Source of the DNA: Patescibacteria group bacterium
GTDB lineage: Bacteria > Patescibacteriota > Minisyncoccia > UBA6257 > JAKLIH01
Direction of reading: 5' to 3'
Assembly (NCBI GenBank): GCA_022709715.1
Contig: JAKLIH010000004.1
Location: 1-53,224 of the forward strand
Length of the DNA stretch: 53,224 bases
Shown: positions 22,658 through 51,326 of the stretch, piece by piece
Layout: every line of letters begins with the position of its first letter
Position numbering within the stretch: the first letter of the stretch is position 1
Program-made: the position numbers and the translations under genes
The notes under the pieces: generated by a model
What the model saw: only the letters and a program-made list of their open reading frames with translations
Told to the model about the DNA's origin: nothing
The model's database searches: none

Positions 22658-22707
22658 AAATAGGTTTTAAATATAGTATCAAAAAATTTAAAAGTATGAA
22701 AGAGGTG

Positions 22708-22736
22708 TTGCATTTTTATCTATTTTTTGGTATTAT
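22708..22736 (+). promoter_or_regulatory. Plus-strand promoter for a candidate RNA
   Basis: TTGCAT (22708-22713), a 17-bp spacer and TATTAT (22731-22736) point away from arfB. No plus-strand coding gene follows, but a series of stem-loops does. Confidence 0.6.
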
Positions 22737-22742
22737 AATATT

Positions 22743-22975
22743 ATCAGATGCAAAGTACGTTGTAGGTTTAAACGCTCTATTTCGAAAATGCCATACGTAC
22801 GAAGGCGATTTTTGTCTGGTAAGGCCAGCGCCGTCAACATCTGGTTTGGTTTTATAACGCGTTTATTTGATTCGGTTATCCCATTATAATCAAACGCGTT
22901 GTCTTGCTCTTTATACAAACTAGCTCGGCCTTGGATGATTCAGTCCCTGTCCGAGCTAGGAAAATTTAGTTTTAT
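22743..22975 (+). ncRNA. Candidate structured RNA, unassigned
   Basis: This segment between arfB and the toxin gene is less AT-rich than its surroundings and carries four successive stems. These are gtacgt/acgtac near 22755-22800; ggcg-ctgg/ccag-cgcc near 22803-22834; aacgcgttt/aaacgcgtt near 22856-22904; and ctagctcgg/ccgagctag at 22920-22959. A plus-strand promoter precedes it. More hairpins follow to about 23190: taaacaatta/taattgttta, gctggag/ctccagc, and gagcta/tagctc with a T-run, any of which could terminate it. I see no RNase P, tmRNA or SRP signature. A minus-strand reading frame across it (61 codons) is not supported by any family. Confidence 0.5.
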
Positions 22976-23154
22976 TTTTATTATGTTTGGCGTTCATCGT
23001 TAAACAATTATCAAAGCCAATCTTTTGGTTTAATTGTTTAGCAAAACCCATATCATCCGTGGTTTTTATGTATGTCCTTTTTTAAAACTCTAAGATTGCA
23101 CAAAAGCTGGAGAATAGCTCCAGCGAAAAATAAAACTTTATTTTACGTTCTTTA

Positions 23155-23200
23155 TAAAATTGAGCTAACGAAAATAGCTCTTTTTTATTTTTAAAAAATC
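23155..23200 (+). terminator. Terminator-like hairpin
   Basis: gagcta / tagctc with a 7-nt loop is followed by ttttttattttt on the plus strand. It could end the candidate RNA that starts near 22743. Confidence 0.6.
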
Positions 23201-23202
23201 AT

Positions 23203-23221
23203 AACGGTACCAGGTACCGTT
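23203..23221. repeat. Dispersed palindrome, copy 1 (aacggtacc-a-ggtaccgtt type)
   Basis: Perfect 19-nt palindrome with a central A. Related copies are at 25426-25448, 50886-50906 and 50929-50947. This one lies 13 nt past the toxin stop codon. Confidence 0.8.
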
Positions 23222-23233
23222 CTAGCATTCTAA

Positions 23234-25277: not shown

Positions 25278-25305
25278 GATATTATATAGTTAATATTATA
25301 TAATA

Positions 25306-25334
25306 AGTGTACATGATTAACGCAAAAAAGTCAA
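25306..25334 (-). promoter_or_regulatory. Promoter of fic with an inverted repeat over the -35 box
   Basis: Minus strand TTGACT (25329-25334), 17 bp, TACACT (25306-25311). The half-sites attaacg and cgttaat flank the -35 box (about 25317-25348), and a third attaacg copy lies near 25367. This suggests binding of a repressor. Confidence 0.65.
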
Positions 25335-25425
25335 TATATCGTTAATTTATGCTTAAAATGCCTTAAATTAACGTTTTTTAAATAAAAACCATACAAAATT
25401 GTGTAGTTTTAATATAGAACGGTAT

Positions 25426-25448
25426 AGAACAGTACCAGGTACTGTTCT
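25426..25448. repeat. Dispersed palindrome, copy 2
   Basis: Perfect 23-nt palindrome of the form agaacagtacc-a-ggtactgttct. Compared with copy 1, g/c at one step has changed to a/t on both arms, which keeps the pairing. It lies upstream of fic, so copies 1 and 2 bracket the toxin-antitoxin/fic cassette. Confidence 0.75.
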
Positions 25449-25552
25449 GCCCATTATTTAATCCCAACGCTGCCTGGCAGTATTGAGATTAATTTCACTT
25501 AGATTTCTTAATTACTTGGCCGAACTATTTCACTTAGATTTTAGTATACTTG

Positions 25553-25870
25553 ATGCAACAACTTGATATTTTCTAATTTTTTATTTATAATATTAATGTT
25601 GAGTCGTGCATTACTATGTGGGCCTCTTTCGATCAAAATGATTTATAACCCCATATAGTATAAATTCGATGTCTTCTTAAGCTTATAATTATGTTTCAAT
25701 AAGCCGGGGGAAGCGCCGTGCGGTGACTGACAATTTTGTAATCCATGTAAGATGAACCGAAAAGGATCATGTCACAGACACTTGGCTTGTGACCGCAATC
25801 AAGCCAAGTGGAAAATTAGCACTTTTATATCATTGTTTTTTGGAGCTGTGTTTCACAGCTCCTATTTTTT
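25553..25870 (+). ncRNA. Candidate structured RNA with terminator, unassigned
   Basis: The gap between fic and fusA holds no gene. On the plus strand a TATACT box (near 25546) precedes a structured stretch. Its stems are atgtggg/ccccatat near 25617-25657, gcttat/ataagc near 25681-25704, and gtgac/gtcac near 25722-25776. A perfect 10-bp stem, cacttggctt/aagccaagtg, spans 25779-25810. The loop of the last stem contains accgc, complementary to gcggt near 25719, so a pseudoknot is possible. An intrinsic terminator closes it at 25842-25870. It is GC-richer than the surroundings. Size and pseudoknot recall RNase P or tmRNA, but their invariant sequences were not found. Confidence 0.55.
25842..25870 (+). 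terminator. Intrinsic terminator of the candidate RNA
   Basis: ggagctgtg / cacagctcc with a 3-nt loop is followed by tattttttt on the plus strand. Confidence 0.8.
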
Positions 25871-25882
25871 TGGTCAAATTAA

Positions 25883-25918
25883 AACCCGGCGAAAATCATA
25901 AATGATTTTCGCCGGGTT
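25883..25918 (-). terminator. Intrinsic terminator of the rpsL-rpsG-fusA operon
   Basis: A perfect 16-bp stem (aacccggcgaaaatca and its complement) with a 4-nt loop begins 13 nt past the fusA stop and is followed by an aatttg tract on the minus strand. Confidence 0.8.
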
Positions 25919-25930
25919 AATTCTGAACAA

Positions 25931-28048
25931 TTATTTTTCAACTGTTGGTTTTCGTTTGGAAATAATTTCTTCGGAAATGTTTCTTGGTACTTCTTGATAA
26001 CTATGAAATTCCATATTAAATGTACCTCTGCCTTCAGTGAAGGATCGAAGATTAGTGGCATAGCCAAACATTTCTCCTAATGGTACTAAGGCATCAACAA
26101 TACGCAATCCCATACGTTCACCCATTTCTTCAATGCGACCACGTTTAGAATTGATATCACCAATAACATCGCCTAAGAAGTTTTCAGGAACAGTTACTTC
26201 AAGTTTCATAATTGGTTCGAGTATTACCGGTTGGGCTTTTTTAGCGGCATCTTGAAAAGCCATGGAAGCAGCAATCTTGAAAGCAAAATCGGATGAATCG
26301 ACTTCATGGAATGAACCATCGAAAAGTGTAACTTTCAAATCCGAAATTGGATAGTTGGCTAAAATACCACGATCTAATGCTTCTTTAGTTCCCTTTTCAA
26401 CGGAGGAAATAAATTCTTGAGGAATAACACCACCTTTGATTTGGTTAACAAATTCAAAACCTTTGCCTCTTTCTAATGGTTCGAGTTTTAGTCAAACATG
26501 ACCATATTGACCTTTACCACCAGATTGGCGAATGTATTTACCCTCGGCTTCAGACGAACCATTAATTGTTTCGCGATAAGCTACTTGAGGTTTACCAACG
26601 TTGAGTTCAACATTAAATTCACGTTTCATACGATCAACTAAAACATCAAGATGTAATTCGCCCATACCACCAATGACAGTATCATTGGTTTCTTGATCAG
26701 TTTTAACTTTGAAAGTTGGGTCCTCATCGGCTAATTTTCTTAAGGCTTCACCCATTTTGTCTTGATCATTTTTGGTTTTGGGTTCAATGCGTAATCAAAT
26801 AACTGGATCTGGAAAAGTAATATTTTCTAATATCACTGGATTATCAATGTCACATAGTGTATCGCCAGTTTTGGTATCTTTTAAACCAACGGTAGCGGCA
26901 ATATCACCAGCTTCAATATCATCAATATCTTCCCGTTTGTTTGAAAACATACGTAAAATACGACTAATACGTTCTTGAGAATTTTTATTAGAATTTAAAA
27001 CATAAGATCCTTTGGTTAATTTACCAGAGTAAACGCGGAAATAAGCTAAAGTACCAACGTAAGGATCAGTGGCAACTTTAAAAACTAAAGCCGCAAATGG
27101 TTCTTTGGCGTCAGCTTTGCGTATAACTTTTTCACCTTTTAAATTTTCAGCTTCAATTGATTCCACATCCAACGGGCTTGGCAAAAGATCAACTACGGCA
27201 TCGAGCATCAATTGAACACCTTTATTTTTGAAAGCGGAACCACAGACTACAGGCACAATTTTATAAGCAATAACGGATTTACGAAGAGATGCGCGTAATT
27301 CTTCTTCAGTAAAATTCGTATCGCCATTTAAATATCTCTCCATTAAAGCATCGTCTTCCGATGAAATTTTTTCTACCAATTCATCATGGCGAGCTTGAGC
27401 AGTAGGTAGCATATCCTCAGGAATATCAGATAAAGCAATGATTTCACCATGTTCGCCATTAAAATTAACTTTTTTCATACGAATTAAATCGATAACTCCT
27501 TCGAAATTGGCTTCTTTGCCAATTGGTAAAGTTAAAGCCACGGCATTGGGAGTTAAACGTTCACGTATCATTTGTAAATCTTTTTCAAAATCAGCTCCCA
27601 TACGATCGAGTTTGTTAACAAAACAAATACGTGGTACTGAATATTTATCAGCTTGACGTCAAACTGTTTCGGATTGAGGCTCAACACCAGCCACACCATC
27701 AAAAACGACCACAGCTCCGTCTAAAACCCGTAAAGAGCGTTGGACTTCAGCTGTGAAGTCAATATGGCCTGGGGTGTCAATAACATTAATTTTATATTTA
27801 AAATTTTGATCGCCATTTCGATAACTAGTTGTTCAAAAACAAGTAGTAGCAGCTGAAGTAATAGTAATACCTCGCTCTCTTTCTTGTTCCATTCAATCCA
27901 TAATGGCAGCACCTTCATGAACTTCACCAATTTTATGAGAAAGTCCAGTATAAAATAAAATACGTTCCGATGTGGTGGTTTTACCCGCATCAATGTGAGC
28001 GATAATACCAATGTTACGTACTTTTTCAAGAGGATATTCTTGGGACAT
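25931..28048 (-). CDS. fusA: Elongation factor G
   Basis: 705 residues, full length. G1 AHIDAGKT is near residues 17-24, G3 DTPGHIDF, G4 [10 protein letters not shown]. Expected Trp positions are [20 protein letters not shown], the FW after [33 protein letters not shown] and FPDPVIWLRIEP. This is the richest single proof of the recoding, since EF-G is highly conserved there. Domain IV shows [12 protein letters not shown]. It drives translocation and, with ribosome recycling factor, recycling. It follows rpsL and rpsG as in the str operon, with a 185-bp gap holding a repeat. Confidence 0.98.
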
Positions 28049-28233: not shown

Positions 28234-28698
28234 TTATTTTCCGAAATGAGCAAAGGCTTTGTTGGCTTCTGCCATCTTGTGCATATCTAGTTTCTTTTTC
28301 ATGGCATTACCTTCACCTTTATAAGCAGCTATAATTTCATCGGCCAATTTATAAGCGATAGATTTGCCTTTTTTAGCTCGAGCAAAATTAATAATTCAAC
28401 GCATAGCTAATGTCAAACGGCGTTGATCATTTACAATAATTGGGACTTGATAGTTGGCTCCACCAATTCTTTTAGTGCGAACTTCAAGAGTGGGTCCAAC
28501 ATTTTTTAAAGCTGTTTCCAAAACAAATAAACCATCGTTTTGAGTTTTTTCTTCAATTATTTCTAACATTTTATAAATATGTTTTTGAGCAACAATTTTT
28601 TTACCGCATTCCATGACCATGTTGATAAACTTGGTAACGATAGGGCTTTGATATTTGGCGTCAGCTTTATATTTTTTTTCATTAACAATAAGATCCAT
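28234..28698 (-). CDS. rpsG: Ribosomal protein uS7
   Basis: 154 residues. Contains [54 protein letters not shown] and [19 protein letters not shown]. The conserved Trp in LAMRW is TGA. The N-terminus is a little shorter than usual. It organises the 30S head. Confidence 0.96.
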
Positions 28699-28727: not shown

Positions 28728-29141
28728 TTATTTCTTGGCTTTCTTGGCGCCATATTTGCTACGTTGTTGTTTGCGACCATCGACTCCAGTGGCATCATAT
28801 TTTGCTCTAACAATATGATAACGCACACCTGGTAAATCTTTAACACGACCACCACGTAATAAAACTACTGAGTGTTCTTGGAGATTGTGGCCAATACCGG
28901 GTATGTAGGCAGTAACTTCATCACCGTTGGATAATTTAACACGAGCAACTTTTCGCAAAGCTGAGTTTGGTTTTTTGGGAGTAGTAGTAAATACTTTCGT
29001 ACAAGTTCCTTTTTTAAATGGTGAGTCATAGGGAGTTGGGCGATTCTTTTTAATATTAAAACCAGCCTTTAAAGCTCTGGCATTAGCTTTTTTAACAATA
29101 ACCTTTCTTCCCTTTTTGACTAACTGATTGATAGTTGGCAT
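28728..29141 (-). CDS. rpsL: Ribosomal protein uS12
   Basis: 137 residues. Contains [72 protein letters not shown] and [20 protein letters not shown]. It is the streptomycin-site decoding protein and the first gene of the str operon. The Lys in TPKKPNSA is wild type for streptomycin sensitivity. Confidence 0.98.
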
Positions 29142-29352
29142 GTATCAAAAATTAAAAAATTGATTAAATTGAGAATAAATATTATATAAATATTTAATTT
29201 CTCATAATATAAAATTTCATTTTACGAAGCCATTCCGTAAAACAAATTATGTATCTAGCACATCAACATAATCCTAATTTATAGGTAAGTAAATGTTAAC
29301 ATAATAAAAGCCAAAAGTCAAATATTTGTATGTTAATTTATGAGAATTTGTG

Positions 29353-29742
29353 AATAAATTAACATGGACAAATATTTGCATCCCCACACCAAGAATTAAT
29401 TCAAAACTCAAATGTCAAAAGTCAAATCTATATCTCAAAAATCAAAAATTAATACAAAATACTAAATACAAAATTGGTGTGGAGCCTGCCTGCCGGTAGG
29501 CAGGTGAAGCGGGGTCAATGCTAACGCAACCCAAAAAATCCGAACAACCCGAATGACCCGAAAAATAAACCCAATTGTAAAATAAATTAACATGGACAAA
29601 TATTTGCATCCCCACACCAAGAATTAATTCAAAACTCAAATGTCAAAAGTCAAATCTATATCTCAAAAATCAAAAATTAATACAAAATACTGAATACAAA
29701 ATTGGTGTGGAGCCTGCCTACCGGCAGGCAGGGGCTAGCAAA
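29353..29742. repeat. Tandem duplication of repeat family A (two copies, 228-bp offset)
   Basis: Two near-identical blocks of about 150 bp start at 29353 and 29581. Each has aataaattaacatgg, then ccccacaccaa, an AT-rich interior of tcaaa units, then ttggtgtggagcctgcctgcc and a ccggcaggcag-type palindrome. The outer parts ccccacaccaa/ttggtgtgg are inverted repeats, so each copy can fold on itself. Between the copies lies a cccgaa-rich segment (29522-29568) of another family. No gene is present from 29142 to 29760. Confidence 0.85.
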
Positions 29743-29761: not shown

Positions 29762-29801
29762 AATGAAAAAGGTCTAGTCGGGATTTCCCACACTAGAACC
29801 T
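29762..29801 (-). terminator. Intrinsic terminator of the minus-strand candidate RNA
   Basis: The stem aggttctagt-gtggg / cccgactagacct (one mismatch) is followed by tttttcattt on the minus strand. Confidence 0.8.
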
Positions 29802-30215
29802 ATTAAAAATGTTGATGAAAGGCGAGGTAATTTGCCTAAAGGTCGATGATCACAACGCCTTTCATCTAACCGGGATTGTTTTTCCAGACTTTATAATATT
29901 TAGGTTTTTCCCTATATATTTAGAGTTTGCTGGACCGTTTTCCCAATTTTATTTTTAAAACAGCGAGTGTTGCCCTATTGTTTCAAGTAAATAATTGCGG
30001 CTATTTACCTGCTCCAATAGAGCTTTGTTTGACGTATCTAATATATATCATACCATTATCTCCTTTAAGTTTAAGGAAAAGATGGCTTATGTTCTCACAC
30101 CCCGAGAACTAGGGTAATGCCTTACGCTCAGCTCGTGAGCCAAGGTGGTAACATCGTATCCCCTTTCTTTTCTATACCGCAAATATAGAAATGGACAAAG
30201 ATAGGAAAAACTTTA
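29770..30215 (-). ncRNA. Candidate structured RNA of about 445 nt, unassigned
   Basis: The transcript is bounded by a TTGACA/TAATAT promoter (30223-30250) and an intrinsic terminator. It has many stems: tttctata/tatagaaa near 30165-30187, gctca/tgagc near 30126-30140, gttctc/gagaac near 30090-30108, and an 11-bp stem gatgaaaggcg/cgcctttcatc spanning about 29814-29866. A ribosome-binding site and a 16-codon frame (MIYIRYVKQSSIGAGK) lie in the middle at about 30009-30059, so it could be a leader-peptide RNA, a tmRNA-like molecule or a ribozyme. The invariant RNase P and tmRNA end sequences were not found. Confidence 0.55.
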
Positions 30216-30222
30216 TATTTAT

Positions 30223-30250
30223 ATATTATCATATTTTTTATAGTTGTCAA
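30223..30250 (-). promoter_or_regulatory. Promoter of the 445-nt candidate RNA
   Basis: Minus strand TTGACA (30245-30250), 16-bp spacer, TAATAT (30223-30228). A hairpin (30253-30285) lies directly upstream. Confidence 0.75.
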
Positions 30251-30252
30251 TA

Positions 30253-30321
30253 AAAAACCATCTAGCTTTTAGTTAGATGGTTTTTAAAAGAAAAATCTCC
30301 GCGATTATTCGCGGAGATTTT
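30253..30321 (-). terminator. Two hairpins ending the thioredoxin-like gene
   Basis: 30292-30321 has 12-bp arms aaaatctccgcg and complement; 30253-30285 has arms aaaaaccatcta and complement. Both have T-runs on the minus strand. The first starts 10 nt past the thioredoxin-like stop codon. Confidence 0.75.
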
Positions 30322-30330
30322 AAATGATAA

Positions 30331-30747
30331 TTATTCAGTTTGACCATTAAAAAATTCAATAATTGGTTGATCGCCAGTAATACATTCGCTACCAGTTCAA
30401 AGAAACGGAACACCAATACTTTCTTGAGACATTTCGCATTTTTGAACCACGGCTAATAAAATTTGAACGCTTTCTTCTTCGGCAACATTTTTTTCATCTA
30501 AATCAATTTTAGCTTTAATATTGTTGTTAGCAATATATTCTTCAACATTTTTACAATGTGGACAGGTAGCTGAATAAAATAATGTCATTTTAGTTGGCAC
30601 TTCGGCATTAGTATAAATTTTATCTTCGCCAGATGGATTGGCAGTGTTATTAGTTGGAGCATCAATTTTTTTATTATTGAAAGCAAAAACAGCTAAGGCA
30701 ATTAATGCAAAAATACCAATAATAAGCCAAATATTCTTTTTGTTCAT
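30331..30747 (-). CDS. Membrane-anchored thioredoxin/glutaredoxin-like protein
   Basis: 138 residues. An N-terminal membrane segment (KKNIWLIIGIFALIALAVFA) and a Pro/Asn linker are followed by a thioredoxin-fold domain with the active site ATCPHCKNVEEYI (C62 and C65). A conserved-type cis-Pro lies in IGVPFLW, where the Trp is TGA. Cys pair and size fit an extracytoplasmic disulfide oxidoreductase; the partner is unknown. A TTGACT/TACACT promoter lies at 30779-30807. Confidence 0.88.
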
Positions 30748-32865: not shown

Positions 32866-33801
32866 TTATTTCAAGGTAAGACCTTGTTTTTCTAAAAATT
32901 CTTTTAATTCATTAAAAGATTTGTCTCCTAAGCCATTAAAACATTCAACGCTTGTGGCTTTTTGCTTTAATAATTTGCCTAAAGTTTTTACATTATTTTC
33001 GGTTAGACATTTAACTACTCTTTTGGGCAATGGCAAATCTTCGATTTTGGTTTCGGCATCAAATTCAATGGCACTACCAACAATACCGGTTTCAATATCT
33101 TTAGGTTTGTCTTTGCCGGATAATTCATCCGAGATTCAAGCAAAATGTTGAGCCAAAATATTGGTAGCTTCTTCAAAGGCATCTTTAGGAGTAATTGATC
33201 CATCAGTTTCAATTTCAACAATTAGACGATTATAATCAACTCGACCTTTTAGACGCATGTCTTCGGAATCGATTTTAACACGTGTAACTGGTGAAAAAGC
33301 GGAGTCAACTAAAATGGTGCCAATGGGAGTTTTATCATTTTTAGCTTCTTCAAGAGTTCTATAACCAGTGCCCTTTTCAATGGTTACTTCGATTTCTAAT
33401 TCGGCTTTTTTATCAGTTAGAGTGGCAATGTGTAAATCTTTGTTTTGAATTTCAACATTTGGATTTTTATCAAAATTAGCAGCCGATATTTCTTTTTCAC
33501 CTTTAACAGTCAAATTTAAAATTTGAGCTTCTTCAGTAAAAATTTTGGCACGTAACATTTTCAAATTTAAAACAATATCTAAAACTGATTCTAACACACC
33601 CGGTAATTCACTAAATTCATGAGCAGCACCTTTAATTTTAATGGCAGTTACGGACGAACCTTCAATAGAAGATAACAAAACTCGGCGTAAAGTATTGCCA
33701 ATGGTAATACCATAATTAGGATGCAATCCTTCTATCTCAAACACACCAATATTTTTGTTGGTTGTTGGTTTTTGTTTAATTTCGATAGGTAAAGATATCA
33801 T
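32866..33801 (-). CDS. rpoA: RNA polymerase alpha subunit
   Basis: 311 residues. The N-terminal dimerisation domain has GLHPNYGITIGNTLRRVLLS and SSVTAIKIKGAAHEFSELPG, and KGTGYRTLEEAKNDKTPIGT. A TGA (near residue 223) is Trp in FAWISDELS. The C-terminal domain has IEDLPLPKRVVKCLTENNVK and GLGDKSFNELKEFL. It scaffolds RNA polymerase assembly and, through its C-terminal domain, contacts upstream DNA and activators. Located in the alpha operon between rpsD and rplQ. Confidence 0.97.
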
Positions 33802-50789: not shown

Positions 50790-50885
50790 AAAATCAAATT
50801 CAAATATAAATTTATAACATGGTTAGTATAATAAAAAAAAGTATTAATTGCAAGTGCTTTGGGCTAAGTAGCGAAATACCAATCG

Positions 50886-50947
50886 GAACGGTACCAGGTA
50901 CCGTTCTACATTGTTCATTTTTAATCAAAACGGTACCAGGTACCGTT
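50886..50947. repeat. Dispersed palindrome, copies 3 and 4
   Basis: gaacggtaccaggtaccgttc (50886-50906) and aacggtaccaggtaccgtt (50929-50947) are perfect palindromes 22 nt apart. They lie between the desulforedoxin-like gene and the hypothetical gene. 50790-51054 holds no gene. Confidence 0.85.
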
Positions 50948-50968
50948 GGGATTAAAAACTGGTGGTGT

Positions 50969-51000
50969 AAAAAACAAAGGCCGATCGGCCTTTGTTTTTT
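50969..51000. terminator. Bidirectional intrinsic terminator
   Basis: A perfect 16-bp-arm palindrome (aaaaaacaaaggccga and complement) with T-runs on both strands. It would end the desulforedoxin-like gene on the minus strand. Confidence 0.85.
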
Positions 51001-51054
51001 ACATATGCGATTATTATTCCTATTCTATGTGATTATTATTACGCTTCTATGTGA

Positions 51055-51297
51055 TTATTCTTCCTCTTCTTCATCAAATTCTTCATCTTCGCTATCAGCA
51101 TAAATATTGCTTAGTTCTTCGCCATTAATTTTGGCCAAATCTTCGTCACCTAAAAAAGCCGTTTCGTCGTCTTCATGAACTAAAGTTTTTAATTCCATGG
51201 GTTTATTACAGCAAACTAATTCCCCATCACCAGCTGTAATAATTTTGACGGTGTTCCCACAAATGGAACATCTATATACTTGATCTTCTGTCGTCAT
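51055..51297 (-). CDS. Desulforedoxin/desulfoferrodoxin N-terminal-like protein with acidic tail
   Basis: 80 residues. VYRCSICGNTVKIITAGDGE and LVCCNKPMEL form the four-Cys FeS4 site of the desulforedoxin fold (Cys near 10, 13, 29, 30). The remaining half is strongly acidic (DSEDEEFDEEEEE) and replaces the catalytic superoxide-reductase domain. It probably carries electrons for oxygen defence, in line with the rubrerythrin next to it. It lies 29 nt past the rubrerythrin stop codon. Confidence 0.85.
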   Translation of the reverse strand: MTTEDQVYRCSICGNTVKIITAGDGELVCCNKPMELKTLVHEDDETAFLGDEDLAKINGEELSNIYADSEDEEFDEEEEE

Positions 51298-51326
51298 AAA
51301 ATAAATTTAATTATTATTAATTAAAA

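Follow-up and report, generated by a model that had tools for sequence, protein, structure and literature searches.

A candidate lineage-specific structured RNA gene upstream of the S12 operon in a Patescibacteria genome reading TGA as tryptophan

The closest described counterparts of the locus reported here are the stand-alone intergenic small RNAs of bacteria, the attenuator leaders of ribosomal-protein operons, tmRNA, and the large ornate bacterial RNAs OLE, GOLLD and ROOL. It has been reported that the sensing parts of attenuators are diverse and rapidly evolving (PMC2965389). For the Patescibacteriota family JAKLIH01, of which the present genome is probably a member, the use of UGA for tryptophan was published in 2026 (PMC13092985); a literature search returned no account of small RNAs in this lineage. 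The locus lies in a window of 53,224 nt, by which the whole stretch of DNA that was analysed is meant, and this window corresponds to contig C42 in a genome of 900 kb that is 98.8% complete. The candidate RNA lies on the minus strand between the gene for a glutaredoxin/thioredoxin-like protein and the S12-S7-EF-G operon, both also on the minus strand. The features of the region are listed in the direction of transcription:

30331..30747, minus: glutaredoxin/thioredoxin-like protein gene upstream of the RNA, TGA read as Trp
30253..30321, minus: two predicted terminators insulating the RNA from the upstream gene, -19.3 and -13.1 kcal/mol
30223..30250, minus: putative promoter TTGACA-16-TAATAT with extended -10 TG (sequence match)
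29770..30217, minus: predicted structured RNA of about 445-450 nt, its 5' end placed from the promoter
29766..29801, minus: predicted intrinsic terminator, hairpin (-14.8 kcal/mol) then U-run
29581..29732, plus: dispersed repeat, copy 2, outside the RNA
29353..29504, plus: dispersed repeat, copy 1, outside the RNA
29293..29321, minus: separate S12 operon promoter (sequence match), conserved in the congener G001
28728..29141, minus: rpsL, coding for ribosomal protein S12, at the head of the S12-S7-EF-G operon

Tryptophan is encoded by TGA in the genes of the window, for example in those at 25931-28048, 28234-28698, 32866-33801 and 30331-30747 (minus). The EF-G gene (25931-28048, minus) contains five in-frame TGA codons and no TGG, with the TGA codons at conserved tryptophan positions such as that of MD[W]MEQER, and in S7 an in-frame TGA occupies the tryptophan position of AMR[W]I. 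Over eight long frames of the window, TGA was counted 35 times and TGG five times. Code 4 was therefore needed for gene calling, and under this code no convincing gene was found in the candidate interval.

The promoter and the intrinsic terminator which the first-pass annotation had proposed were both confirmed as sequence elements. The promoter (30250-30223) has a 16-nt spacing and an extended -10 TG, and it is located directly 3' of the double terminator of the upstream gene. The terminator (29801-29770, followed by T's; -14.8 kcal/mol) consists of the hairpin AGGUUCUAGUGUGGG-AAA-UCCCGACUAGACCU and a run of U's. Simple promoter matches are frequent in this AT-rich DNA (29 observed vs 20.3 expected), and the TTGAC[A/T]...TGNTA form of the RNA promoter is common to several other promoter-like sites on the minus strand of the window and to the S12 promoter of G001. 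The promoter could also be aligned with the S12 promoter region of G001, with 78% identity over 45 nt. The G+C content of the RNA is 0.373 vs 0.272 in intergenic DNA. The interval thus has what is expected of a stand-alone small RNA gene, namely its own promoter (as a sequence match), its own intrinsic terminator and no encoded protein. Promoter, terminator, composition and predicted fold together make a good sequence-based case for a minus-strand RNA gene.

The minus strand was predicted to fold with a minimum free energy of -138.7 kcal/mol, and strong folding was confirmed by z scores of -7.5 and, in a second run, -8.3 relative to dinucleotide shuffles (-7.8 without the terminator). The plus strand folds less strongly (z -5.6, second run -5.1). 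When the same test was applied to the RNase P RNA and the tmRNA of the same genome, values of -6.8 and -3.6 were obtained, both weaker than that of the candidate. Single-sequence folding is weak evidence for functional structure and not proof of it (PMC8250186), and z scores of about -6 to -7 are also reached by other intergenic stretches of the window. The predicted hairpins are:

30156..30211, minus: H1 (5' domain), helix probabilities 0.66-0.93
30120..30145, minus: H2, probability 0.77-0.79
30091..30109, minus: H3, uncertain, probability 0.38
30052..30086, minus: H4, holding the paired AAAGGAG (supposed ribosome-binding site), probability 0.97-0.98
29972..30023, minus: H6, 9 + 11 bp, probability 0.96-1.00
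29868..29948, minus: H7, with A-rich internal loops, probability 0.62-0.99 (about 0.9)
29814..29866, minus: H8, 11-bp stem, probability 1.00

An 11-bp stem had previously been described as long-range. The stem exists (GATGAAAGGCG/CGCCTTTCATC, 29866-29856 / 29824-29814), but with 31 nt between its arms it is a local hairpin; the only long-range closing helix of the RNA is weak (6 bp, GAUGUU/AACAUU, probability 0.37). Elsewhere in the window, strong predicted structure was observed in the long intergenic regions 1-369, 22658-23233, 25278-25930 and 50790-51326 (some with z about -6 to -7), none of which has an Rfam match at gathering scores. Dispersed near-palindromes around GGTACCTGGTACC were found in the last three of these regions, with two copies in one of them.

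The candidate RNA is single-copy in its own genome and is therefore not a dispersed repeat. The repeat pair that had been noted beside it is real (152 nt, 98% identical); it lies outside the RNA and belongs to families present at several other sites of the genome. A 20-nt palindrome, CCTGCCTGCCGGTAGGCAGG, occurs at 29485-29504 and 29713-29732, inside dispersed repeats that are present on several contigs. The relatives searched comprised two congeners (G001 and G002), one genome of the same family, about 290 genomes of the same order and a sample of the phylum; the family sample thus consisted of three other members, with G001 55% and G002 85% complete, and the latter gave no S12 hit. BLAST searches of 100 relatives, 244 order-level genomes and 380 genomes from the phylum gave no homologue, the best hits being chance matches of 20-40 nt, and single-sequence covariance models of the 5' and 3' halves gave no convincing match in 293 relatives. 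Similarly, no homologue was found in phage and plasmid sequences, and in five exact-pattern scans of viral contigs no match extended beyond about 30 nt. As a control, the RNase P RNA shows 89-93% identity in both G001 and G002 and can still be detected in G003. About 95 nt of the RNase P RNA (positions 258-352; L040:1758-1852) are unmatched in the two congeners and probably form a variable arm. Lack of conservation in close relatives, which the first-pass annotation had named as counting against its proposal, is therefore largely what was found. It removes a housekeeping role, whereas a young lineage-specific RNA gene is compatible with it; the apparent absence from the congeners (55% and 85% complete) counts against an important role.

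From 29303 onward, the S12 side of the region aligns with G001 at 79%, S12 promoter and leader included. The S12 leader (29303-29142, minus) is conserved there as a candidate ribosomal-protein leader, and its hairpin TTTTACGG-AATGGC-TTCGTAAAA is changed to TTTTACAA-AATGGC-TTTGTAAAA, a compensated stem change in which the loop ATGGC is kept. The interval corresponding to the RNA holds a different, shorter unit in G001, with a promoter TTGACA...TAGTAT, hairpins and a terminator ending GTCTTGGCGGTATTTT (z -4.8). This syntenic unit scored 13 bits with the 3' covariance model, within the range of 10-19 bits given by unrelated hairpins of the window (filters off), and thus offers no evidence of homology. 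The G001 scaffold (L071:5788-6141) is interrupted by 100 N exactly after TTGACAATTCAA, at the promoter upstream of S12, and the same 127 nt stand on both sides as an overlap. This gap looks like an assembly-graph fork and suggests strain variation at the promoter. Because of it, the RNA can be called absent from G001 only with some reserve. At this site, RNA genes may turn over rapidly between close relatives.

Several other explanations were weighed against a stand-alone RNA gene. In size and complexity the candidate would suit a housekeeping RNA (tmRNA, RNase P, 6S, SRP) in strongly diverged form, or some other large RNA that is already known. However, all Rfam 15 families, including ribozymes, riboswitches and large RNAs, gave no match at the gathering threshold and nothing meaningful at permissive thresholds. 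A match to a known family, the other outcome that had been listed against the candidate, was thus not seen, and the ribozyme suggested earlier finds no family to which it could belong. The suggestion of a tmRNA-like RNA was likewise rejected, since the tmRNA of this genome is on contig C97 (142 bits) and ARAGORN and Rfam found no tmRNA in the candidate, neither a tRNA-like domain nor a tag frame being recovered. The RNase P RNA is on contig C13 (44 bits), where GAGGAAAGTCC and the ACAGA core letters are visible; the candidate has no match to its family model and shows none of the conservation, about 90% in the congeners, that RNase P RNA has in the same genomes. With both RNAs located elsewhere, a divergent housekeeping RNA is considered very improbable. 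A T-box-like string, AAGGTGGTAACATCG, on the plus strand at about 30143-30157 was also set aside, as no flanking gene lies on the plus strand and no Rfam T-box match was obtained. Equally improbable is translation of the RNA, as a small mRNA or a leader-peptide RNA, from an internal ribosome-binding site, an explanation that rests on the following frame:

30001..30051, minus: 16-codon frame MIYIRYVKQSSIGAGK, ATG 30051 to TAG 30001, not credible as a gene

The motif AAAGGAG is located eight nt before the ATG of this frame, and a 33-codon frame starts at 30056 if TGA is Trp. Against translation, as little as AGGA was found upstream of only 2 of the 54 window genes (the other 52 have no Shine-Dalgarno-like motif), and the 3' end of the 16S rRNA as assembled in this genome (contig C14 near 18500) reads GGTACCGCTACCGGAAGGTGGAGGTGAAACATTTC, with no CCTCC/CCUCC anti-Shine-Dalgarno sequence. 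Furthermore, the AAAGGAG lies inside H4, where it is predicted to be paired with a probability near 1, so that the usable ribosome-binding site of a leader-peptide RNA is missing. Neither the 33-codon frame nor any further frame that was tested matched a protein family above its cut-off, in agreement with the earlier statement that no protein gene lies in the RNA. Among the plus-strand frames, the only match (HigB, 14.2 bits, below the cut-off of 27) was taken as chance. The ribosome-binding site and 16-codon frame of the first-pass annotation therefore exist as letters only, and its small regulatory RNA with a peptide stands only without the peptide.

The main rival takes the interval for an insertion or relic that is rich in hairpins, has no function of its own and sits where the intergenic DNA is variable. 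Such a relic would fit the absence of the RNA from relatives, the dispersed repeats on one flank, the abundance of hairpins in other intergenic regions of the window, and the G001 fork, which with its 127-nt overlap and 100 N falls exactly at the homologous promoter and suggests strain variation. However, the sequence is unique and belongs to no repeat family, and a decaying insertion would not be expected to keep promoter and terminator complete and correctly ordered around a fold that exceeds RNase P RNA in strength; a relic is accordingly regarded as a serious but somewhat unlikely explanation. A cis-acting attenuator or leader of the S12-S7-EF-G operon, in which transcription from an upstream promoter would pass through a structured leader and meet a premature terminator under regulation, is less likely again. 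The RNA is on the same strand and directly upstream of rpsL, G001 has a different promoter-hairpins-terminator unit at the same place, and diversity and rapid evolution are reported for the sensing parts of attenuators (PMC2965389). On the other hand, S12 has its own promoter at 29321 and a conserved leader, the terminator of the RNA and the S12 promoter lie about 450 nt apart, with dispersed repeats filling most of the gap, and no anti-terminator was detected, since 42 of 60 shuffled arms paired with the upstream RNA as well as the 5' arm of the terminator did. A stand-alone trans-acting RNA is favoured for these reasons, namely the own and conserved promoter of S12, the repeat-rich gap and the lack of an anti-terminator excess.

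Our main reading, to which a probability of roughly 0.5 is given, is thus a gene of about 450 nt, standing alone and specific to this lineage, whose highly structured small RNA would act in trans. The RNA would be transcribed from its own promoter at 30250, would end at its own intrinsic terminator at 29770, and would form a unit insulated from both neighbouring genes. The folded RNA may then act through base pairing of exposed loops or through protein binding, rather than through a peptide or cis control of S12. As no relatives are detectable and the peptide is not credible, the candidate, which is real as a feature of the sequence, is most likely a small RNA of an ordinary kind that is specific to the lineage and carries no peptide. 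A bolder proposal, which we consider quite improbable, is a new class of large structured RNA confined to one Paceibacterota lineage. Its site upstream of the S12 operon would then be hypervariable, with differing promoter-RNA-terminator cassettes exchanged among congeners and strains. As an orphan RNA without a target, the candidate is of modest importance at present; if transcribed, it would clearly exemplify how a reduced genome can hold a structured RNA gene of recent origin.

Compared with the known systems, the candidate resembles tmRNA in size and, as letters, in its internal short frame, but it differs in that no tRNA-like domain was found and the genuine tmRNA lies elsewhere in the genome. 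Like OLE, GOLLD and ROOL it is large, multi-hairpin and non-coding, but it is about 450 nt long, has no Rfam match and no conservation, and no associated protein or phage context was found. With the attenuator leaders of ribosomal-protein operons it shares a promoter, a structured RNA and a terminator upstream of such an operon on the same strand, whereas here the operon possesses a separate, conserved promoter, repeats lie in between and no anti-terminator is seen. Intergenic bacterial small RNAs are mostly shorter than the candidate, which also differs in having no homologues and no known target or chaperone link, and in belonging to a Paceibacterota host whose genes are without Shine-Dalgarno signals; the candidate is nevertheless like them in standing alone with its own promoter and intrinsic terminator, in encoding no protein and in forming several stable predicted hairpins.
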